Part shown: positions 51,882 to 61,486 of the stretch, piece after piece | Numbering within the stretch: position 1 is the first letter of the stretch | Layout of the letters: each line of letters starts with the position of its first letter | Origin: Symmachiella dynata | GTDB taxonomy: Bacteria; Planctomycetota; Planctomycetia; Planctomycetales; Planctomycetaceae | Direction of reading: 5' to 3' | Assembly (NCBI RefSeq): GCF_007747995.1 | Contig: NZ_CP036276.1 | Coordinates: 3,959,001-4,023,000, forward strand | Length of the DNA: 64,000 bases | Notes under the pieces: model-generated | Database searches by the model: none | Seen by the model: only the letters and a program-made list of their open reading frames with translations | What the model was told of the DNA's origin: nothing | Made by a program: the position numbers and the translations under genes

Positions 51882-52814
51882 ATGACGATACTCTATTACG
51901 ATCCGATTTTTCTTGAACACAAAACGGGAGACCACCCCGAATCAACGGAACGAATCATTCCCGCCGCGCGGCGCATGCAGCTGATGGCATTTGATAACCA
52001 AAGCCGCCGCCCTGCATGGGGCCCGGCAACGTTGGATCGACTGTTGCGGGTTCATTCCCCCGATTATCTTGACTTGATCCAAAAATTAGCGGCCTCTGGA
52101 GGGGGGGCTATTGACGCGGATACGGTCGTCAGCGCACGCTCCTATGATGTCGCCTCCATGGCAGCCGGTGCAGTTTGTGATGCTGTTGAACGTGTTTTGA
52201 AGGGTGAAGACGAGACGGCTTTTTGTCTCGTGCGGCCGCCGGGCCATCATGCGCTTGAGGATCGCGGCATGGGCTTTTGTTTATTCAACAACGTCGCCGT
52301 CGGAAGCCGGTTGGCGATCGACGAGTTGGGACTCGACCGGGTTATGATTGTGGATTGGGACGTGCATCACGGTAACGGCACGCAAGCCACATTTTGGGAA
52401 GACCCGCAAGTCGGCTACTTCTCCATCCACCGGTCGCCATTTTATCCGTGGACGGGAACAGCCGATGAAACCGGTGTCGGCGCGGCGCGGGGAACAACCT
52501 TGAATTTGCCAATCTCCTTTGGCACACCACGGGATGAGTATTTAGAGACGTTCGCCGAGGGCGTCGAGCGATTTGCCGCGGCACTCAAACCACAGCTGAT
52601 ATTGATCAGTGCCGGCTTTGATGCGCATCGTCTGGATCCGGTTGGCTCACTGGGCTTGGAGAGTGAGGATTTTAGTCTCATGACGAAGATTGTATTACGT
52701 GTTGCTGCAACGCATGCCGGCGGTCGAGTCGTCAGTGTATTAGAAGGCGGATATAATCCGGTCGCACTGGCGGATTGCGTAGAGCACCATTTGCACGAAT
52801 TATTATCGATATGA
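51882..52814 (+). CDS. Histone-deacetylase-family protein (class II / AcuC-like)
   Basis: This 310-residue zinc-dependent amidohydrolase belongs to the histone deacetylase family. The catalytic pieces are CLVRPPGHHALEDRGMGFC (tandem His), IVDWDVHHGNGTQATFW (metal Asp and His), SIHRSPFYPWTGTADETG, ISAGFDAHRLDP (second metal Asp) and VLEGGYNP. In bacteria such enzymes remove acetyl groups from proteins or polyamines. The next gene, 48 bases downstream on the same strand, encodes a protein acetyltransferase of Pat type, so the two probably form an acetylation/deacetylation pair. Confidence 0.92.
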   Translation: MTILYYDPIFLEHKTGDHPESTERIIPAARRMQLMAFDNQSRRPAWGPATLDRLLRVHSPDYLDLIQKLAASGGGAIDADTVVSARSYDVASMAAGAVCDAVERVLKGEDETAFCLVRPPGHHALEDRGMGFCLFNNVAVGSRLAIDELGLDRVMIVDWDVHHGNGTQATFWEDPQVGYFSIHRSPFYPWTGTADETGVGAARGTTLNLPISFGTPRDEYLETFAEGVERFAAALKPQLILISAGFDAHRLDPVGSLGLESEDFSLMTKIVLRVAATHAGGRVVSVLEGGYNPVALADCVEHHLHELLSI

Positions 52815-52861: not shown

Positions 52862-55546
52862 ATGCCGATTCGTAACCTCAAGAAAATCTTCCAACCCGAG
52901 AGTGTCGCCGTCATCGGTGCGAGCAACCGCATATCGAGCGTTGGACGAACGGTCCTGCGGAATTTGATCGATGACGGATTCGCCGGTGAGATCTATCTCG
53001 TCAACCCAAAGCACAAGATGATTGACGAGATCCCCTGTTTCGCCAAGGTGGCCGATCTGCCCAAGCCGCCGGACCTAGCCATCATTTGCACACCGGCAGC
53101 CACTGTGCCTGACTTAGCGCGACAGTGCGGCGAAGTTGGCGTCAAAGGATTGGTGATCTTATCGGCAGGGTTTCGCGAGACAGGTCGTGACGGGGAGATG
53201 CTGGAAGCAGAATTGGCTGCGCAGGCCAAACAATTCCCCGGGATGCGGATCATCGGCCCCAATTGTCTAGGAATTCTCGCACCGCATGCGTCGCTGAACG
53301 CCAGTTTTGCTACCGACATGCCGGCAAAAGGCAGCGTGGCTTTTCTTTCACAGTCCGGTGCGCTCTGTTCCTCGGTTCTGGATTGGGCGCTGCAGGAAAA
53401 GATTGGATTCTCCTGCTTTGTCTCTGTGGGAAATATGCTCGATGTGGGCATTGCCGATTTAATTGACTACCTGGCCATGGATCAATGGACCGAGTCGATT
53501 ATTCTGTACGTCGAATCGATCACAGAAGCTCGCCAGTTTATGTCGGCCGCGCGTGCGTTTACAAAAAGCAAACCAATCATCGTCTATAAGGCCGGGCGAT
53601 TTGCAGAATCGGCCAAGGCGGCCGCATCCCATACAGGCGCTCTGGCAGGCGTGGACGCTGTCTACCAAGCCGCATTCACGCGAGCCGGCATGGTACGCGT
53701 TTTTGAGATCGATCATTTGTTTGACTGCGCGGAGTTGTTGGCCCGCCATGCGTCTCCCAAGGTTTCTCGCTTGGCGATTGTCACAAATGCCGGTGGTCCC
53801 GGCGTGATCGCCACCGACGCGTTATTGGAACGGCACGGTTCATTGGCAAATCTGAGCGACACAACGCTCGCTCAACTGGATAAGCAACTTCCCAATGCGT
53901 GGTCGCATGGAAATCCAGTCGACGTCTTGGGGGATGCGACTCCGGCACGGATCGGCAAGGCGGTCAAGGTCGTGTTGTCCGACAAACAAGCCGACGGTCT
54001 GTTGGTGATTCTCTCTCCACAAGCGATGACTGATCCCACGGGAGTTGCTCAAGCCGTGATCGAGGCGACGCAGCAATCGACGAAGCCCGTGCTTACGGTA
54101 TGGATGGGGGGGCAAAAAGTACGCAAAGGGATCGAACTTTTCAATCATGCAGGCATTCCCACGTACTCCTCACCTGAACAGGCAGTCCGCGCGTTTCTCT
54201 ACTTAGTTGCGTATGCGCGAAATCGACAACTCCTGACTGAAACGCCGCGCGAAATGCCTGTCGAGTTTCCACTCAACCGCGCCAAATTGCGAGCCGTCTT
54301 CGACACCATCCTCAGTGAAGGTCAGGATATCCTGACAGAGAACACCTCCAAAGCGCTGCTCGAAGCGTATGAGATCCCTGTCGCCCAGACATATGTCGCC
54401 CGCAACGCCGACGATGCAGTCGAGTACGCGATGCGTGTCGGATATCCTGTCGTTTTGAAGGTGTTTTCGCCGCAGATCACCCACAAAACTGATGTCGGCG
54501 GCGTCGAGTTGAACCTCGCTGGTGAACAAGACGTCCGGGCGGCGTTTGAGCACGTTGTGGCAAATGCCAAACGGCACCGGCCCGATGCAGATGTACAGGG
54601 GGTCACGGTGCAGCGCATGGTTTCTGCCCCCAACGGACGCGAACTGATCGTCGGGGCAAAACGCGACCCGGTGTTTGGTGTGGTACTCCTGGTGGGAGCC
54701 GGCGGGGTTACGGCCGAATTGTATCAGGACACGGCGTTGGAATTGCCGCCGCTGAATGAGCGACTGGCGCGGCGGATGTTGGAATCGCTTCGATCCTGGC
54801 CGCTGCTCAGCGGCTACCGCGGAGGTGCCGCTGTGAATGTCGATCGCCTCATCGAGGTCTTAATCCGCCTATCATATTTGGTGGCTGACTATCCCGAAAT
54901 CAAGGAGTTAGACGTCAATCCGCTGCTCGTCACCCCCGACGCAGTCACGGCGCTGGATGCCCGGATCGTGTTGGATCACGAAGCTATTTTGCATCCCGCT
55001 CGCCCCTATTCCCATCTGGCGATCCGTCCCTATCCCGAGGAGTTTATCCGACAAGCCAAGCTCAAAGACGGTACGACCATCTTATTGAGGCCGATTAAAC
55101 CCGAGGACGAACCGCTCTGGCACGCATTATTGGCGAGTTGTTCTCCGGAATCGATTCGCTTCCGATTTCGGTATATGTTCAAGAAGACGACGCATGAGAT
55201 GGCTGCACGGTTTTGTTTTAATGACTACGACCGCGAAATGGCCATCGTTGCCGAAACTGAAATCGACGACAAACGCCATCTCATCGGTGTTGGGAGACTC
55301 GTGGCGGATGCCGATCACAGCAAAGCAGAATATGCAATATTGATCGGAGATGATTGGCAAGGCTTGGGGTTGGGTTCACTGTTGACCGACTACTGTCTCG
55401 AGGTCTGCCAAAGGTGGGGTGTCACAGAGGTCACAGCTGAAACGGATCCGACAAACCATCGCATGCTCGATATCTTCCGGAAACGGTCGTTTACCTTGGA
55501 TGCCACGAGTTGCCCCGATTCAGTTCTCGTGGCAAAGCACTTGTGA
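52862..55546 (+). CDS. Acyl-CoA synthetase-like protein with C-terminal GNAT domain (Pat/PatZ type)
   Basis: This 894-residue protein has the Pat/YfiQ architecture. CoA-binding domain: FQPESVAVIGASNRISSVGR. Succinyl-CoA-ligase-like domain: FLSQSGALCSSVLDW and KAAASHTGALAGVDAVYQ, which keeps a His at the phospho-His position. ATP-grasp: SKALLEAYEIPVAQTYVA, VLKVFSPQITHKTDVGGVEL, RELIVGAKRDPVFG. GNAT domain from about residue 735: RPIKPEDEPLWHALLASCSP and the acetyl-CoA loop DDWQGLGLGSLL. Such proteins acetylate lysines, for example on acetyl-CoA synthetase, in response to metabolism. A true ADP-forming acetate-CoA ligase activity cannot be excluded because the His is present. It follows the deacetylase gene. 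Confidence 0.92.
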   Translation: MPIRNLKKIFQPESVAVIGASNRISSVGRTVLRNLIDDGFAGEIYLVNPKHKMIDEIPCFAKVADLPKPPDLAIICTPAATVPDLARQCGEVGVKGLVILSAGFRETGRDGEMLEAELAAQAKQFPGMRIIGPNCLGILAPHASLNASFATDMPAKGSVAFLSQSGALCSSVLDWALQEKIGFSCFVSVGNMLDVGIADLIDYLAMDQWTESIILYVESITEARQFMSAARAFTKSKPIIVYKAGRFAESAKAAASHTGALAGVDAVYQAAFTRAGMVRVFEIDHLFDCAELLARHASPKVSRLAIVTNAGGPGVIATDALLERHGSLANLSDTTLAQLDKQLPNAWSHGNPVDVLGDATPARIGKAVKVVLSDKQADGLLVILSPQAMTDPTGVAQAVIEATQQSTKPVLTVWMGGQKVRKGIELFNHAGIPTYSSPEQAVRAFLYLVAYARNRQLLTETPREMPVEFPLNRAKLRAVFDTILSEGQDILTENTSKALLEAYEIPVAQTYVARNADDAVEYAMRVGYPVVLKVFSPQITHKTDVGGVELNLAGEQDVRAAFEHVVANAKRHRPDADVQGVTVQRMVSAPNGRELIVGAKRDPVFGVVLLVGAGGVTAELYQDTALELPPLNERLARRMLESLRSWPLLSGYRGGAAVNVDRLIEVLIRLSYLVADYPEIKELDVNPLLVTPDAVTALDARIVLDHEAILHPARPYSHLAIRPYPEEFIRQAKLKDGTTILLRPIKPEDEPLWHALLASCSPESIRFRFRYMFKKTTHEMAARFCFNDYDREMAIVAETEIDDKRHLIGVGRLVADADHSKAEYAILIGDDWQGLGLGSLLTDYCLEVCQRWGVTEVTAETDPTNHRMLDIFRKRSFTLDATSCPDSVLVAKHL

Positions 55547-55741: not shown

Positions 55742-58438
55742 TCAAGAACGAATGGGCTCATGGTCTGTTCTTATTTGATTCACGATCGTCGTATCTTTGA
55801 TCTTGTCATCTTTGGCCAACAGGTAGGCTTTACTCAGAATTAGGGAAAGTGTGTTGTCGCCTTCGAACGGCAAATAAAGATTGTCAGTTCGTCGCGTTCC
55901 TCCGCCGCGTTTCTGCACGATGCACAGATAACGATCGTTGGGTGACATCAAAATATTGCTCGAACCAAGGTGAATTTTGTACGTCCGAAGTTTGCCGTCG
56001 ACTATGAGAAACCGACCGTCCAGCCGACATTGATCCGCAATTTCGAGCCGAGGCAAGATTTGTTCCAGCGCTTTTCTTCGCGTGAGAGCCGATTGTGAGA
56101 GTTCGCCGAAGGAAAACTGTTCCCAGTAATCGTCGTGCTCAGCAACGCCCTCTCGCTCCCGCCATTCCGGATCGTTTCCAATACTCGTTACGCCCACGAA
56201 CAAATCAACGTCCCTCATCACCTCGGAGAATACAATCGGATCAATCGTCTCCAACGGCAAAGGGGTTGCTAATTCGGGGGCACCGTCTTGCAGAGCAAAG
56301 AACTGTACGTGCGAGGTGGCGACGTGCGTATAGACGAAGTTTTGAGTGATATTGGTATCGCCTTCCAATGGATCTACGTAAAACGCGATATGCAGACCCT
56401 GTTGGGGCAAGTCCAAGCTGGGCGCATTCCATGAGTCCCAGTCCCCCTGTAAGTCATACCTCCAACCACGCTGCTGGCAAAGTGCGGCAAATTGATGCTG
56501 GCGAATGATGTGGGAGGAAAAACGAAGAGAGCGATCAACGGTTTCACGCTCTGCATCCGTCACAACATAGACCTCGCGATGGGCTTGTTTGAACGGCTGA
56601 GACACTTGGTGCGCGTCCAGCCATTGTCGCCACTGCAAGACTTCGTTGGCTGAACAGTGCATTGGATGCCAGAGGGAAATACGGCATTCAGGATCGGGTA
56701 GGAATGAGTGGCCAGCCGAAGTGACCCACTGTCCCTCGTGCCACATCACCGCGGTGATGCTCGCATCTTGCCCAACATTCCAAATGAGTCGACAAGCAAC
56801 CACACCAACGAGCGGATGGTCCAGAAAACGCTTTCGGAAATCACTCAGGTTCCAAGATCGCTCGGTTAGATACAGATGTTCAATCCGGTAGCGGAGTGAA
56901 GGCATGAGTATGTCGATGTCCTTTAACCGCTTCTTCAACTGCTTAAGTTGGTCACTGCACGTCTCTTTGACTGCTTTGGGCACCGTCTTTTGAATGCTGC
57001 CGTCTGGCCGACGCCAGATGAGTTGGTGCTTCTGATGAGCGTTGATTGTTGCTTCCGCCGTAAACCCAGCTATCTTCTCATGCAGCTGTCCGACGCGTGT
57101 CAGTCCATATCTGGGCACGCTGATTTCAACCAGATCCTCTTCCACCATACCGGCGTTGGAAGCAGCTGTTTGAAAGGCCTTGGCGATCTGCTTTCTGGTC
57201 GATATGTGCTTGGCTCGTGATTGCAGTCGCCCCAATTGGGCAATGGCGCAGTCGCTGGCCAATGTTGAGAGTGCAATCAGACACGCATTGCCAATTTTGG
57301 GTGACCGCGGTCCGACCTCCCGAATCTTTTGGAAGCATTTTTCCGCAGCATCACCGACGCCGCTGATCAACGACTCGTCATTGACAAGCGATGTCGTCCA
57401 CACCAGGCCTCTCAAGCAGTCGATATGTGTGTCATGGATCTCAGTTTCTTCGCTGTACTCTATGCGATAACCGTAGTCGAATCGCTGGCATTCTCCCGGC
57501 TGTCCGATTGCTGCCAAAATGGAGACCGTCACGCGGACAAACTCGCTGGTGCCGATCCCGTCGAGACACTCACGCGACTGCTTGATGAACTTCTTTGTGG
57601 GCTTCGATCCTTTGGCCGTGCTGCAGTGCCGCAGGAACTCGTGCCATCTGTTTCTCGATTCGTCGGGCATCTTGCCCAATTCAATCAGCAAGGCGTTCGT
57701 CCATGCTTCTCCTGTGTTAAAGTCTAAAGCGACAGAGGCAATGGGTGAATCGGCATCATTCGGATCCACCTTGCACTTCGATTCCAGCGATTCGAAAGCC
57801 TTGGCATCACACGCGGGCATGGCCAACAAAGCTTCAATTCTCTGCCCCGCTTTGCGAGCATCGCTGTAGACTGAACCAGAATTGTATTCTGTGGCCATCC
57901 GCTGTAGCTGCTGCCGTATCGAATTGCACAAACCGTGCTCGGCGACGTGCCGTTCGACATTGGCAAGAATCGGAGTGATCGGCAAGCCTGTGATGATGAA
58001 TGAGACATTGGCCAGCGGAGTTAATAGACCAACGATTTCAACGTCCGTGTAAGGCAGTTTTCTTCGCAGCAGTGATGACAGCACCACGTCGCAGACTTGA
58101 TCGGTTGTTAGGTCAATGAAGTTCTGATTGCCAAGATGCTTAAGAGCCAAGGCAACGGCAGCCTTTTGAGTCGCGTGATTTGCCGTCTGGATATTTCGGC
58201 CCGACTCGTAGTCTTTTAGGCTGATTTTTCCTGAACCACGTCGTATCGCAGATGCTTCGTCATTCAGTTGCATCGCGGCTGCAAGCCAGCCACCGAAGTG
58301 GGGCTTTGAGGCTTCCAGTTCGTTGTTTTGTTTGACTTCTGCGACAAGCTGTGCGATTTGTTTTTCCGCATTGTGCCGAGCAGCGGTTGGTTCGCTTCCC
58401 ATGTCCGCAATATCCGGGTTGGAGACCTGTGAAACCAT
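55742..58438 (-). CDS. Large DUF4132/DUF7737-type protein, partner of GG-tailed protein
   Basis: This 898-residue protein has a helical N-terminal half with ARM/HEAT-like character. About residues 480-640 resemble DUF4132 (MolR-related): QLKQLKKRLKDIDILMPSLR, SDFRKRFLDHPLVGVVACRL, VMWHEGQWV, ISLWHPMHCSANEVLQWRQW. The C-terminal 110 residues match what I know as DUF7737: ADQCRLDGRFLIVDGKLRTY, KIHLGSSNILMSPNDRYLC, YLPFEGDNTLSLILSKAYLL. No signal peptide or membrane span is apparent. The biochemical role of these domains is not established. The gene lies 39 bases downstream of the 132-residue GG-tailed gene in the same direction, probably one transcript. The ATG at 58438 has AGGG about 11 bases upstream. 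Confidence 0.75.
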   Translation of the reverse strand: MVSQVSNPDIADMGSEPTAARHNAEKQIAQLVAEVKQNNELEASKPHFGGWLAAAMQLNDEASAIRRGSGKISLKDYESGRNIQTANHATQKAAVALALKHLGNQNFIDLTTDQVCDVVLSSLLRRKLPYTDVEIVGLLTPLANVSFIITGLPITPILANVERHVAEHGLCNSIRQQLQRMATEYNSGSVYSDARKAGQRIEALLAMPACDAKAFESLESKCKVDPNDADSPIASVALDFNTGEAWTNALLIELGKMPDESRNRWHEFLRHCSTAKGSKPTKKFIKQSRECLDGIGTSEFVRVTVSILAAIGQPGECQRFDYGYRIEYSEETEIHDTHIDCLRGLVWTTSLVNDESLISGVGDAAEKCFQKIREVGPRSPKIGNACLIALSTLASDCAIAQLGRLQSRAKHISTRKQIAKAFQTAASNAGMVEEDLVEISVPRYGLTRVGQLHEKIAGFTAEATINAHQKHQLIWRRPDGSIQKTVPKAVKETCSDQLKQLKKRLKDIDILMPSLRYRIEHLYLTERSWNLSDFRKRFLDHPLVGVVACRLIWNVGQDASITAVMWHEGQWVTSAGHSFLPDPECRISLWHPMHCSANEVLQWRQWLDAHQVSQPFKQAHREVYVVTDAERETVDRSLRFSSHIIRQHQFAALCQQRGWRYDLQGDWDSWNAPSLDLPQQGLHIAFYVDPLEGDTNITQNFVYTHVATSHVQFFALQDGAPELATPLPLETIDPIVFSEVMRDVDLFVGVTSIGNDPEWREREGVAEHDDYWEQFSFGELSQSALTRRKALEQILPRLEIADQCRLDGRFLIVDGKLRTYKIHLGSSNILMSPNDRYLCIVQKRGGGTRRTDNLYLPFEGDNTLSLILSKAYLLAKDDKIKDTTIVNQIRTDHEPIRS

Positions 58439-58477
58439 GGATTGTTGCCCTGTTGAGCCTAGTTCATTGAGAAATTC

Positions 58478-58876
58478 CTAGCCGCCCATCAGCATTGTTA
58501 AATGTAAGAACTTGATATCCGTTGAAGGTTCAATCCTGACGACTGCATCCAGCGAATTGAATTGCTCCTCGTTGATGAAGACCAATATCTGCTGATTCCG
58601 GAATGCCTCCTTGGTTTTGTCAAACTCTACCCGCCAGTCAATTGAACTTGATTGCGCCGGCTGAGTTCCATTTAACATCACTTCGTCCTGGCTCGGAACG
58701 ACCAGTGGCGGTTTCGGAGGCGCAACGGCTCGCTGAACATTGCAGTCCTTGACTCGCTGGAACACGTAGCTTCGAATCACCTCTTCAACCGTGACCTGGC
58801 TTTCGCGCAATTCGATATGAGTTGCTCCAAGCGTCTTTCCTGCCGTGGATTCGTCTCTGATCGTCAGTGTCGCCAT
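58478..58876 (-). CDS. Small protein with C-terminal Gly-Gly, ubiquitin/MoaD-like features
   Basis: This 132-residue protein starts ATLTIRDESTAGKTLGATHI, a beta-hairpin-like pattern, followed by VTVEEVIRSYVFQRVKDCN, similar to the first helix of a beta-grasp fold. After a proline-rich loop it resumes with QILVFINEEQFNSLDAVVRI and ends TDIKFLHLTMLMGG. A hydrophobic strand running into an exposed terminal Gly-Gly is the hallmark of ubiquitin-like and MoaD/ThiS proteins that are adenylated by an E1-like enzyme. No E1, JAB or E2-like gene is in the window. I believe related proteins with a VGG or GG end sit beside DUF4132-type genes in other bacteria, from memory only. The second of two adjacent ATGs (58876) has AGGAAGG at best spacing. 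Confidence 0.65.
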   Translation of the reverse strand: MATLTIRDESTAGKTLGATHIELRESQVTVEEVIRSYVFQRVKDCNVQRAVAPPKPPLVVPSQDEVMLNGTQPAQSSSIDWRVEFDKTKEAFRNQQILVFINEEQFNSLDAVVRIEPSTDIKFLHLTMLMGG

Positions 58877-59235
58877 CATCGCCCTTCCTCAAATCTGATC
58901 CCCAAGGACTAGCTATTCAAACGTGGCATATCCCCCGGTGCGTCGACGGCCCGGCAGATGCAAAGTCAGCCGCGCGAAACCGCTGACGTAGGACTATGTC
59001 GATTATGCCAGCAATACTGACCCTCCTGCAGCGAATTCTTAGCAGCACGGGAATTCCATATGGCTTAGTAGGATTGGGACTTCCGCCCGCCTCGTGGGCA
59101 TTCAATCGAAAGACACACACTGGCTCGTCCCACCAACGGCAAATTGGCGGGATTCCGTCGAAATTCAGGCTATCGATCCACGTCCTCATCCTCGGTGCGA
59201 TGAGGATTGGGTGAACCCGCCTGCCATGTATCGCC
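58877..59235. other. Intergenic region upstream of the GG-tailed gene
   Basis: This stretch lies after the stop of the methyltransferase/propeller gene on the same strand and should hold the promoter for the GG-protein operon. Frames of 72 and 144 codons overlap on opposite strands without motifs or ribosome-binding sites. I see no clear terminator or promoter. Confidence 0.35.
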
Positions 59236-60846
59236 CTATTCCTGCGATTCCAACAGACGATTGAGATGTTCCTTGTCGAAGTGAAGTACGGAGATTTGAT
59301 TATGATCCCACGTAGGTGCCGGAGCAGTGCCGATGTAAAGATGATGGACATGCTCTGTTGCGTTGGGTAGCAGGTTGGGAGTCACATGGCCGTAGGCATC
59401 GGTTTCTTGGCCCGACTTTTCTGCCAGCAGTCCCAAATCACGCCATTGCAGACCATCTGGACTTGAAGCCCAGTGGGTTCCTTTCCCTGACTCGTACAAC
59501 AGAACAAGCTTGTCCCCCAGCCTCTTCACGTCCACACCTCCAGCGTTACGACCGAAGACAGGGTTGTTGTTGTGCCGAACCCAATGCAGTCCATCTCGGG
59601 ACGTGGCGTAGCCAATGTCTCGGCGTGACTTGGACGATTTGGGGACATTGCTCACCGGTGAGTGGAGCGGGAAGTCCTTACGTCCGTCGTACCACATTTT
59701 GAATTGCCCATCTTCGTACAACACGGTCGGCCGACCGACCGACAGGGCATCCCATTGCCCAGCGGCCCCAGGTGAGAGAGCGACGCCATTTGTCTCCCAG
59801 TTCAACCCATCTTTCGAGGTTGCCACATCAATTTGATCAATCACATCTTTCTCGGCGCGCGTGTAGAACATGTAATACACGCCATCGACTTTGATCACAC
59901 TGGGGTCGTTGACGTGATTGGCTGTTCCATTGGAGAGCACGACACCTTTGCGAATCCAATGCTCGCCATCCTTTGACTCGGCATAGCTGATTCGGTCGTG
60001 GCCATCTTTTCCTTGGCAGCCATACCACATTTTAAATAGTCCATCATCAACCATCACGTCCGGAGCATAGATGTTGCCTTTGCCGTGAGGCGCGATTTCC
60101 GACTCTCCTTTTCCCCTCAGCAGAAGTTTCAACTCGGGAGGGGACGTTTTCTCGAACCGCACAAAGTACGATTCATCGAGCATGTCTTTCTTTTCCTCGA
60201 CCTGCTTGAAACCGGATTCGAGGATCTCTTGGGTGAAGACTTCCTGTCCGGCACGGACGTGGGTCATCAGCCATTCTCGGCTAACGCCTTCAATGCGGTG
60301 AAAGTCGATGAGGATCAATTGCCCACCCGGTTTCAGAGCACGGTGAATTGACTCCATGGTTTTGTGCGGAAACTCGAAGTGATGATACGTGTCGCAAATG
60401 AATGCCAAATCGATGGAATTGGGCGGCAGGTTGACGGAATCCTGTTTGCAGACCACGCCAGTAATGTTTTTGAGGCCCTGCTCCTGCGCCGTGCTCTCAA
60501 TGTGCTTCAGAAACTTCTCGGAGATGTCCACTGCGTAAATCCGCCCCGTGGGACCGACCAGGGGTGAAAACATGCGAGTGAACAGTCCCGTACCTGCTCC
60601 AATATCAGCAACGACCATGCCGGGCTTGAGTTGGCAGGCTTTGACGATCTGATGACGGTGGTCATAAGCGTCTCGCCCTTCATTCTCAAAACGTCCGATG
60701 AACTTCTCCACATCGACATCTTGGAATGCCTCATTGATGCCCGGCTTGACGCTCTTCTCTTGAGCAAAGAGCGGTGCCGTCCCCACAAGCACGAGCAAGG
60801 TTGCACACAGAACTTGAATGCCAAAGAATCTGATTAGGTGCCGCAC
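59236..60846 (-). CDS. Exported methyltransferase fused to GH43-like beta-propeller
   Basis: This protein of about 536 residues has a signal peptide (FFGIQVLCATLLVLVGTA, PLFAQ). A class I methyltransferase domain follows, about residues 35-230: VADIGAGTGLFTRMFSPL as SAM motif I, GRIYAVDISEKFLKHIE, LAFICDTYHHFEFPHKTM and ALKPGGQLILIDFHRIEG. A five-bladed-propeller domain of glycosidase-43/DUF377 type ends the protein: GLFKMWYGCQGKDGHDRISY, DGVYYMFYTRAE, GQFKMWYDGRKDF, HHLYIGTAPAPTW. The planctomycete exported methyltransferase form is known; the fusion to a propeller is unusual. I chose the GTG at 60846 because GGAG lies 8 bases upstream and the signal peptide becomes N-terminal; the ATG at 60954 has its ribosome-binding site adjoining with no spacer. 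Confidence 0.8.
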   Translation of the reverse strand: MRHLIRFFGIQVLCATLLVLVGTAPLFAQEKSVKPGINEAFQDVDVEKFIGRFENEGRDAYDHRHQIVKACQLKPGMVVADIGAGTGLFTRMFSPLVGPTGRIYAVDISEKFLKHIESTAQEQGLKNITGVVCKQDSVNLPPNSIDLAFICDTYHHFEFPHKTMESIHRALKPGGQLILIDFHRIEGVSREWLMTHVRAGQEVFTQEILESGFKQVEEKKDMLDESYFVRFEKTSPPELKLLLRGKGESEIAPHGKGNIYAPDVMVDDGLFKMWYGCQGKDGHDRISYAESKDGEHWIRKGVVLSNGTANHVNDPSVIKVDGVYYMFYTRAEKDVIDQIDVATSKDGLNWETNGVALSPGAAGQWDALSVGRPTVLYEDGQFKMWYDGRKDFPLHSPVSNVPKSSKSRRDIGYATSRDGLHWVRHNNNPVFGRNAGGVDVKRLGDKLVLLYESGKGTHWASSPDGLQWRDLGLLAEKSGQETDAYGHVTPNLLPNATEHVHHLYIGTAPAPTWDHNQISVLHFDKEHLNRLLESQE

Positions 60847-61486
60847 AGCGTTGGTCTCCGCATCATCTGATGTTTGTTGAAATCGACGTGCCAAAACAAG
60901 GGAATCCGATTCCTCAAGTTTAACGGAATTCGATGGAATTGCTATCGGTGCCATTCCTCAGGTGGCCATTGCTCAGTCGAGCGGTCCTCAACAAAACCAG
61001 AGTCGCTAGAACTTGGATTGTCGTACTGAAGCCCCTCCTGAATTCTCGTTGACATAGAGACCATGTCTTCCGACAACTCGTTTTTGCTTCTGCGCAGATT
61101 GCGGGCTACGTTGGCTTTTCTGCCCCGTAAGCAGCGAAGCCATCCCCTGCCCCAGCAACAGGGACGAGAGCAGAGAACACACCGAAAGCCGCGCCATTCA
61201 ATACCGCTTCCGTAGAAGTTATCCCCGAATGACGGTCTTGCGACTTACTTCTGATTCCGTTGATTGTCACCGCGAAATTTGCACCCACGTCGGTTATCAA
61301 CGCGGTGTTGCCGACCTCGGTGAGGAACGACCTCTCCGTCGGAATCTAGCTTTGGTCACCCTATCTTCGGTTCCACAGAGGGGGGGGCTCAAAGAGCACA
61401 GAGTCGGAGGCTCAGAGCAAGTGGAGTCGATGCGTTTCGGTCTGCTCGCCAGGGGCTTACAGAAAACTCATGCAAGACCTGTTGGC
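60847..61486. other. Intergenic region, no supported gene
   Basis: No gene is supported. Minus-strand frames at 61006-61197 and 61106-61300 overlap, lack ribosome-binding sites and show no known domain. A G7-G8 run lies at about 61381-61387. The methyltransferase/propeller promoter should lie near 60850-60960, possibly inside the rejected N-terminal extension. Confidence 0.35.

Follow-up and report, generated by a model that had tools for sequence, protein, structure and literature searches.

The terminal Gly-Gly of a small ubiquitin-like protein (Ubl) encoded by Symmachiella dynata and a single cysteine, Cys839, of the large protein encoded by the adjacent gene are kept or lost jointly among their homologs, which suggests, on the strength of aligned sequences, that the two proteins react together. 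This covariation is new here. Cys839 most likely handles the Ubl C-terminus covalently, and there is about an even chance that the genes constitute a two-gene Ubl module in which the C-terminal glycine is held covalently on Cys839 of the DUF7737 domain. Positions refer to the window, i.e., the whole 64,000-nucleotide stretch that was analyzed. The evidence for each feature is given in brackets.

58478–58876, minus strand: ubiquitin-like (beta-grasp, predicted) protein, 132 aa, C-terminus MLMGG (sequence, AF2, Foldseek, family tails)
58481–58486, minus strand: terminal Gly-Gly codons, immediately 5′ of the TAG stop at 58478–58480 (sequence, conservation)
55742–58438, minus strand: large partner, 898 aa, with a helical HEAT/ARM-like N-terminal part followed by DUF4132 and DUF7737 (Pfam, model, Foldseek)
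56462–57001, minus strand: DUF4132 domain, residues 480–659 (Pfam, own-genome search)
55772–56083, minus strand: DUF7737 domain, residues 786–889 (Pfam)
55922–55924, minus strand: Cys839 codon (YLCIV), the DUF7737 residue covarying with the Gly-Gly tail (alignment, tree, sequence)

The gene pair and the predicted fold of the small protein

The small ORF (58478–58879, minus strand) has 133 codons from its first ATG (58879) and 132 from its second, and ends in FLHLTMLMGG followed by TAG. The large ORF lies on the same strand, separated by 39 bases. Pfam assigns DUF4132 (E 5e-44, 150.7 bits) and DUF7737 (E 2e-39, 134.2 bits; curated cut-off 27 for both) to the 898-residue protein. The ORF pair, spacing, and domain parts proposed by the sequence-only reading are confirmed. 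No WGR domain is called by Pfam in this protein, and DUF5724 is absent from the window form. Alpha-solenoids predominate among the best 50 Foldseek matches of the large protein, and no match reaches E 0.001. A search of PDB sequences returned just five matches to the large protein (best E 0.32) and none to the DUF7737 profile up to E 10. The same genome harbors a second complete pair, with its Ubl at G000:C1:3145309-3145695 and the tail LVGG.

The AF2 model of the 132-residue protein (mean pLDDT 81.0) is predicted to have the beta-beta-alpha-beta-beta arrangement, with elements E2-10, E15-23, H30-51, H81-93, E97-101, E104-106, E112-114, and E120-125 and a low-confidence insert separating the first helix from the second. 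The best 50 of 516 Foldseek matches are mostly ubiquitin, SUMO, NEDD8, ISG15, and MOCS2A, with weak E-values (0.018 to 0.094) that never reach 0.001; the top target TM-score among them, 0.59, belongs to human MOCS2A (MoaD type, 5mpo_A). The beta-grasp fold suspected earlier is thus borne out by prediction, its look-alikes standing at weak E-values. No Pfam family, and hence no known Ubl, MoaD, or ThiS profile there, matches the window protein at E up to 1; the same holds for four relatives at E up to 10, and the Ubl profile has no match among PDB sequences up to E 10. Pfam, NCBIfam, and PADLOC provide no significant family name, the best stray matches being an NCBIfam model at E 0.0086 (to a distant relative, far under the model cut-off) and PADLOC PDC-S09 at E 0.03.

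Of 73 distinct members of the close family, the window protein among them, 71 have Gly-Gly immediately before the stop codon; not counted are L071, whose Ubl is cut off by the contig end, the broken L075, and L087–L092, which are distant. By comparison, the other small genes predicted in these loci number 299, and just 4 of them end in Gly-Gly. The distant DUF5724 branch carries the tail in only 7 of 17 rows. Gly-Gly is near-invariant in the close family, in support of the sequence-only reading, but not in that branch. Within the close family, none of the observations named beforehand as counting against the proposal (variable tails, another fold, missing linkage) was made.

Linkage to DUF7737 and joint loss of Gly-Gly and Cys839

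A homolog of the large protein (HMM) is present in 56 of the 64 loci obtained from a scan of genome contigs, usually as the next gene and in some loci just upstream. Neighbors are taken as genes up to about 1.2 kb apart, the largest gaps being 901, 952, and 1175 bases (L049, L142, and L213). Given these 56 loci and the tail frequencies of family and control, the genomic pairing is more than chance. Among 199 genomes of the phylum, the small gene adjoins 11 of 12 DUF7737 loci, the exceptional twelfth beginning 69 bases from a contig end, and none of 22 DUF4132 loci that lack DUF7737. The predicted linkage thus stands, conserved in records of eleven phyla, but with DUF7737 and not DUF4132 as its key. 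In the sequence-only reading the partner was described too generally; what marks it is DUF7737 with its cysteine.

Several genomes depart from the pairwise arrangement. Orphan Ubls with an AG tail (G039), a CVA tail (G353), or a broken copy (G357) occur in genomes in which no DUF7737 was found, G353 and G357 being metagenome bins; these orphans speak for the module, as does an Acetobacter plasmid that carries a DUF7737 with F at the place of Cys839 (by eye) and no Ubl. Other cases speak against it. DUF7737 is absent from the genome of L071, whose contig stops before the Ubl tail, and from that of G115, which has a distant GG-tailed Ubl-like ORF (VAGG). Ubl and partner lie apart from each other in G002, G354, and G356, and two of three Cys-containing DUF7737 copies in Nonomuraea have no adjoining Ubl. 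L091/L109, a distant Ubl that ends in VAGG and whose genome lacks DUF7737, was not counted as a pair. Carriage by viruses or phages was rejected: no relative was confirmed in IMG/VR, and the DUF5724-type partner matches nothing in phages.

Where the Ubl has a GG tail, all 74 partners have Cys839; where it does not, none of the 10 partners does, the replacements being S (5), F (3), N (1), and A (1). No other column across the last 430 residues of the large protein separates the two groups perfectly in all rows, and the same is true when the DUF5724 type is taken by itself (7 of 7 GG versus 0 of 10 non-GG). ORFs lacking a stop codon were left out of these 84 rows, as were pairs that duplicate a retained pair over the last 60 Ubl residues. 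The window pair is not one of the 84; it served as reference in the column test and as the 85th row in the tree. Nonomuraea L223 (GG/C) came after the counts and is outside them; and the G092 DUF7737 (V at 839) and the decayed L023 copy (P at 839), neither with a visible Ubl of its own, enter no pair count. On a tree built without the Cys839 column, each trait changes three times and all three independent pairs agree, such that Gly-Gly and Cys are jointly lost three times; the sign test gives p 0.25, three events being too few to reach 0.05. The bootstrap of this tree had not settled, and long branches were flagged. The non-GG tails read AGA, SG, AGSYW, TGTYW, SGAYW, and SGRLW, and pairs lacking both features, still neighbors in 10 of the 84 rows, are kept in seven Bacteroidota loci. 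Since a side branch comprising Bacteroidota and certain planctomycetes has lost both features, the Ubl–partner complex probably has a non-covalent role as well.

Neighboring genes and the Deinococcus operon

When 879 predicted genes from the 64 loci are clustered, nothing but the pair and its antisense ORFs turns up in over six loci. Among the same genes, phmmer with the four ThiF proteins and one JAB protein of the own genome finds no relative at E 1e-3, in agreement with the earlier remark that no E1 or protease gene is visible nearby. The four ThiF-family genes all lie outside the window, and the JAB gene sits together with one E1 at 1702–1703 kb, away from the pair. Within one genus, the Ubl-containing G126 and the Ubl-free G105 carry two ThiF proteins each, and across 17 genomes of the genus the count ranges from 1 to 11. 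The idea that the unit includes an E1 or JAB of its own was rejected. The DUF7737 pattern PN....C followed by SK.LLA resembles the E2 motif at first sight. Homology to E2 was rejected upon comparison of the DUF7737 profile with four yeast E2s (hhalign P 0.64, score 9.7 versus 7.6 to 19.3 for 20 shuffled E2 profiles).

In Deinococcus radiodurans, DR_A0165 (SEP068184) and DR_A0166 make up the DUF5724-type version of this two-gene operon. The Ubl has 134 residues and the tail LAGG, its partner is a 1626-residue DUF5724-DUF4132-DUF7737 protein with the cysteine, and thioredoxin and YeeE/YedE genes lie directly upstream. We infer that our locus L215 is drA0165-drA0166, because the order thioredoxin, Ubl, DUF4132 fits PMC9650054 and PMC8533742. 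Stress induction of this pair is in print (PMC9650054, PMC8533742); the operon belongs to the DdrO regulon, and mitomycin C induces DRA0166 in an IrrE-dependent manner (PMC8533742). For DR_A0165, a MoaD/SAMP1-like structure has been predicted, with MOCS2A and SAMP1 named, and the knockout exhibits higher H2O2 survival (PMC9650054). In the same work, Trx1 bound the Ubl in pull-downs, and 157 co-immunoprecipitated proteins were common to the N- and C-terminally tagged protein, so those contacts do not require a free Gly-Gly end, which counts against the covalent reading. The available text of the two papers makes no mention of the Gly-Gly tail, the cysteine partner, or small-protein relatives in other phyla.

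DR_A0165 has been described as Deinococcus-only and without an RDRM (PMC9650054). The RDRM palindrome TTATGCTATTTACATAA was found here upstream in three of four Deinococcus loci. Outside Deinococcus, 61 upstream regions, that of the window pair among them, contain neither it nor any of four further SOS-box patterns, and SOS-type boxes there were rejected. The window form differs from that of D. radiodurans in the missing DUF5724.

Candidate mechanism, alternatives, and known systems

It is proposed that the small protein is a beta-grasp Ubl produced with a mature Gly-Gly end. A housekeeping E1 of the MoeB/ThiF type, with its gene elsewhere in the genome, would activate it, and the Ubl would bind the partner with its HEAT-like scaffold, DUF4132, and DUF7737. 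The C-terminal glycine could then be held on Cys839 as a thioester or acyl-persulfide, and Cys839 may hand the Ubl to a target or move sulfur. Fold prediction, tail, linkage, and joint loss were computed here; conjugation or sulfur transfer is what we infer from them. A more specific version is somewhat unlikely: DUF7737 would be a new cysteine enzyme of unassigned structure that forms a thioester with its genomically linked Ubl and modifies proteins, which in Deinococcus would follow DNA damage. It would work without a dedicated E1 or a recognizable E2, and degenerate "pseudo-conjugating" pairs would have lost cysteine and glycine jointly.

The Ubl could instead be a constitutive non-covalent subunit with a structural or regulatory role, Gly-Gly and Cys doing no more than packing together, the tail being small and its pocket tight. 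The persistence of neighboring pairs that lack both features, the absence of own-set E1 or JAB relatives among the neighbors, and the lack of an extra ThiF gene in G126 over G105 would all suit such a subunit; the near-invariant tail of the close family does not, nor does a cysteine found in every GG partner, whose S, F, N, or A replacements look like lost chemistry, and this account is considered unlikely. A sulfur relay, in which the Ubl acts as a MoaD/ThiS-like thiocarboxylate and Cys839 as the persulfide or acceptor site for a thiolated product, is likewise unlikely. It draws on the MOCS2A match, on MOCS2A and SAMP1 in the prediction published for DR_A0165, on the thioredoxin and YeeE/YedE genes of the D. 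radiodurans locus, and on the published Trx1 pull-down (PMC9650054). However, no sulfur-enzyme gene was recognized by eye among clusters recurring in at least 3 of the 64 loci, and moeA and moeB are unchanged under conditions that induce the drA0165-drA0166 operon (PMC8533742). The molybdate link of the sequence-only reading finds no support. No molybdenum gene was recognized by eye in those recurring clusters, and neither the 22 DUF4132 loci without DUF7737 nor E. coli yehI has a Ubl partner, the next small protein, YehK, ending in QEIE. A role of the large protein as a MolR relative that regulates molybdate or transcription, with the Ubl as accessory, is highly improbable, given also that the E. 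coli control genome has no DUF7737 match and the window protein no called WGR domain; the DUF4132 domain in common with E. coli YehI is what speaks for it.

No function is known for the Pfam families DUF4132, DUF5724, and DUF7737, and the joint loss of Gly-Gly and Cys offers them a concrete, testable chemistry; a "Deinococcus-only" stress peptide now belongs to a ubiquitin-like family that records of eleven phyla contain. Should conjugation prove true, prokaryotes would have a Ubl pathway to which neither an E1 nor a JAB is linked and whose cysteine partner is of a new kind; in Deinococcus it would stand under DNA-damage control.

MoaD ends in Gly-Gly and has MoaE as its partner, while that of ThiS is ThiG. 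Bil and CBASS cGAS conjugation belong with the bacterial ubiquitin-like operons considered below. The small protein resembles MoaD/MOCS2A, ThiS, and SAMP1 in its predicted beta-grasp fold and Gly-Gly end, and differs from MoaD and ThiS in having no Pfam match, in the low-confidence insert between its helices, and in its DUF7737 partner. MolR/YehI, a WGR-DUF4132 protein (PMC8533742) whose gene molR is listed as LexA-regulated in E. coli (PMC11039860), shares DUF4132 with the large partner and differs in lacking DUF7737 and an adjoining Ubl gene. Bacterial ubiquitin-like operons that carry E1, E2-like, and JAB genes (Iyer 2006, PMC1779556) differ from the pair, which has no E1 or JAB relative among its neighbors and a DUF7737–E2 similarity at chance level; what they have in common with it is a small Ubl and a cysteine in the partner.

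The gene pair and the predicted fold of its small member

The small ubiquitin-like protein (Ubl) and its partner are encoded 39 bases apart, and the sizes, positions, spacing, and Gly-Gly (GG) tail given by the sequence-only reading are confirmed. The pair and the genes that flank it are the following:

58478-58879, minus strand: Ubl, 132/133 residues, ending MLMGG, then TAG
55742-58438, minus strand: partner, 898 residues, DUF4132 and DUF7737 (Pfam)
52862-55546, plus strand: acyl-CoA-ligase-like protein with ATP-grasp and GNAT domains (Pfam)
59236-60954, minus strand: one ORF with a methyltransferase domain, then a glycoside-hydrolase-like (GH130/GH43/GH32) region

The flanking genes look unrelated to the pair. 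The domain layout of 52862-55546 is presumably PatZ-like, and a histone-deacetylase-like ORF (51882-52814, by eye) lies just upstream of it. The Symmachiella dynata genome, a single contig of 7.77 Mb, harbors a second complete pair at ~3145-3148 kb. Most of the named records among the closest homologues are planctomycetes.

The Ubl matches no Pfam family, and its profile has no match among PDB sequences up to E 10. AlphaFold2 (68 aligned sequences) models it as a beta-grasp with a mean pLDDT of 81.0, a helical insert at lower confidence, and a flexible tail. Among the best 50 of 516 rows of a Foldseek search against the PDB, the look-alikes are chiefly ubiquitin, SUMO, NEDD8, ISG15, and MOCS2A, the last having the highest target TM-score (0.59; 5mpo_A, probability 0.97). 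On the basis of this model the beta-grasp proposed from sequence is likely, but the E-values in these rows are weak: the best, 0.018, belongs to a chain labeled cathepsin G - EapH1 complex, and none is ≤0.001. In a model of the read-through chain, the DUF4132-DUF7737 part folds at mostly high pLDDT.

Linkage to DUF7737 and distribution of the pair

A scan of genome contigs for the Ubl yielded 64 loci, 56 of which contain a partner homologue. When their 879 predicted genes are clustered, only the pair and ORFs antisense to it recur in more than six loci. Two of the eight partnerless loci end at a contig end (L055, with a DUF7737 found in its genome, and L071, with none seen in its genome bin); six do not. 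Three of these (L022, L035, and L067, from genomes G002, G354, and G356, respectively) have a DUF7737 elsewhere in the genome, and none was found in genomes G039 and G353, both with non-GG tails, or in G357, which has a broken copy of the small gene.

Across 199 genomes of the phylum, the small gene lies beside 11 of 12 DUF7737 places (near-complete matches over the cut-off; one match under it and a fragment of 25 residues are not counted), and the twelfth (G092) begins 69 bases from a contig end. The same genomes contain 34 DUF4132 places, 22 of them without DUF7737 over the cut-off; a region scan found the small gene within reach of 0/22, several of which lie on short contigs, with the gene running off the contig in at least two (L151, L163). 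E. coli yehI lacks both DUF7737 and a GG neighbor. Because the small gene tracks DUF7737 and is absent at DUF4132-only places, the partner feature linked to the Ubl is DUF7737; the proposed linkage to DUF4132/DUF7737 genes holds for the former domain only in the company of the latter.

The spread is patchy: 17 of the phylum's 294 genomes give a Ubl match, and in the phylum to which the Chitinophaga genome G346 belongs, 9 of 296 genomes have DUF7737. By record titles and annotations, the pair occurs in Planctomycetota, Gemmatimonadota, Acidobacteriota, Nitrospirota, Chloroflexota, Cyanobacteriota, Bacteroidota, and Armatimonadota (many of these records being metagenome bins, which may be mislabeled), as well as in Deinococcota, Pseudomonadota, and Actinomycetota. 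A second type, reached via weak Ubl matches, has a DUF5724-DUF4132-DUF7737 partner of ~1620-1730 residues; its domains were assigned by Pfam for L104 and L215 and by length and likeness for the remaining members.

Individual loci depart from the simple pair. One Ubl gene precedes two tandem DUF4132-type proteins of 861 and 863 aa (L032:10394-15574), and a decayed second DUF7737-type ORF with P at the cysteine site lies upstream of an intact pair (L023:668-2098). A distant Ubl-like ORF with the tail VAGG (L109:1834-2424) has a same-strand neighbor that looks unrelated, and no DUF7737 was found in its genome, G115.

Joint variation of the Gly-Gly tail and Cys839

Of 73 distinct close-family proteins, counting the one in the window, 71 have GG directly at the stop codon; among the other small genes predicted in the same loci, 4 of 299 end this way. 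The exceptions are L062 (G039; tail AG) and L064 (G353; tail VA). The expected invariance of GG is thus nearly complete in the close family and does not extend to the DUF5724 type, whose tails vary (LAGG, LAGA, LSG, LAGSYW, LTGTYW, LSGAYW, and LSGRLW).

Cys839 of the partner (YLCIV, in DUF7737) is retained in 90 of 98 DUF7737 rows and replaced in eight, namely seven of the DUF5724 type and one decayed copy. In 78 distinct pairs of DUF7737 and neighboring Ubl, 69 are GG/Cys, 9 are non-GG/non-Cys, and 0 are discordant. With six pairs from a plasmid collection added (84 rows), Cys839 is present in 74/74 partners of GG Ubls versus 0/10 partners of non-GG Ubls, which carry S (5), F (3), N (1), or A (1); the Fisher value is set aside because it treats rows as independent. 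Among the alignment columns that the window protein fills over the last 430 residues, only position 839 separates the two sets perfectly, and the same is true within the DUF5724 type alone (7/7 versus 0/10). The window pair and an additional Nonomuraea locus (L223) are concordant for GG and Cys. The covariation also fits an Acetobacter plasmid whose DUF7737 carries F at this site (by eye) and which has no Ubl.

In a tree built without column 839, whose bootstrap had not settled and whose long branches were flagged, each trait changes three times, and 3/3 independent comparisons go together. An earlier 78-row tree again gives three and three changes, two on starred branches. Relatedness matters here: the number of events, three, is small, and significance is beyond the reach of a sign test (p 0.25). 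For three changes placed randomly over 167 branches, the probability of striking the same three is ~1e-6, a rough value that ignores branch lengths. Against strict adjacency, the Nonomuraea region searched has three DUF7737 copies with Cys and one neighboring Ubl, and the partners in G002, G354, and G356 (L202, L204, and L205) have no adjoining Ubl.

A covalent mechanism can be proposed in which the Ubl, activated by a housekeeping E1, would bind DUF7737, Cys839 would take its C-terminus, and a target or sulfur acceptor would come next. Pairs that have lost both groups exist, however, which suggests that the complex also functions without GG/Cys chemistry and keeps alive the alternative of the Ubl as a non-covalent subunit of the partner.

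For the covalent mechanism, an E1, if one acts, is probably a housekeeping enzyme. Four genes of the ThiF family and one JAB gene occur in the genome, all outside the window, and no neighbor gene among the 879 of the 64 loci is related to these proteins at E 1e-3 (the remaining neighbors being judged by eye), which bears out the earlier remark that no E1 is visible. Within one genus, G126 (Ubl present) and G105 (Ubl absent) have two ThiF proteins each; the 17 genomes of that genus have 1 to 11, including 4 in G234 (Ubl present) and 3 and 11 in G278 and G289 (Ubl absent). In the S. dynata genome, a JAB and a ThiF/E1-like gene lie side by side far from the window pair (L098:6005-7910; G000:C1 ~1702-1704 kb). 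DUF7737 was also tested as an E2-like homologue, and no homology was found.

The Deinococcus homologue and related systems

The D. radiodurans pair, assigned by gene order and size, is drA0165-drA0166, for which induction and a phenotype have been reported. According to PMC8533742, the operon is strongly upregulated on DdrO depletion, with a motif at -83; mitomycin C raises DRA0166 in the wild type but not in an irrE mutant, and moeA and moeB are given as not differentially expressed. In PMC9650054, SEP068184 (DR_A0165) is upregulated by gamma rays and H2O2, its knockout has higher H2O2 resistance, 157 co-IP proteins are common to the N- and C-tagged forms, and a pull-down with Trx1 is described. 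The same text describes the protein as Deinococcus-only and the RDRM as absent. An RDRM-like palindrome, TTATGCTATTTACATAA, is nevertheless found ~80-100 bases upstream of the Ubl gene in 3/4 Deinococcus loci (L215, L217, and L218), D. radiodurans among them, in contradiction to that statement and in agreement with PMC8533742; Ubl relatives, likewise, are found in many phyla.

Within the open-access literature, a scope that leaves most subscription journals and all of bioRxiv outside, no paper was found on DUF4132 together with a ubiquitin-like protein or naming DUF5724 or DUF7737. Growth is reported to be slowed when molR1 deletion is combined with lepA deletion (PMC4245954), a hint that MolR-type DUF4132 proteins may function outside molybdenum. 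The structure prediction for SEP068184 in PMC9650054 resembles MOCS2A and SAMP1.
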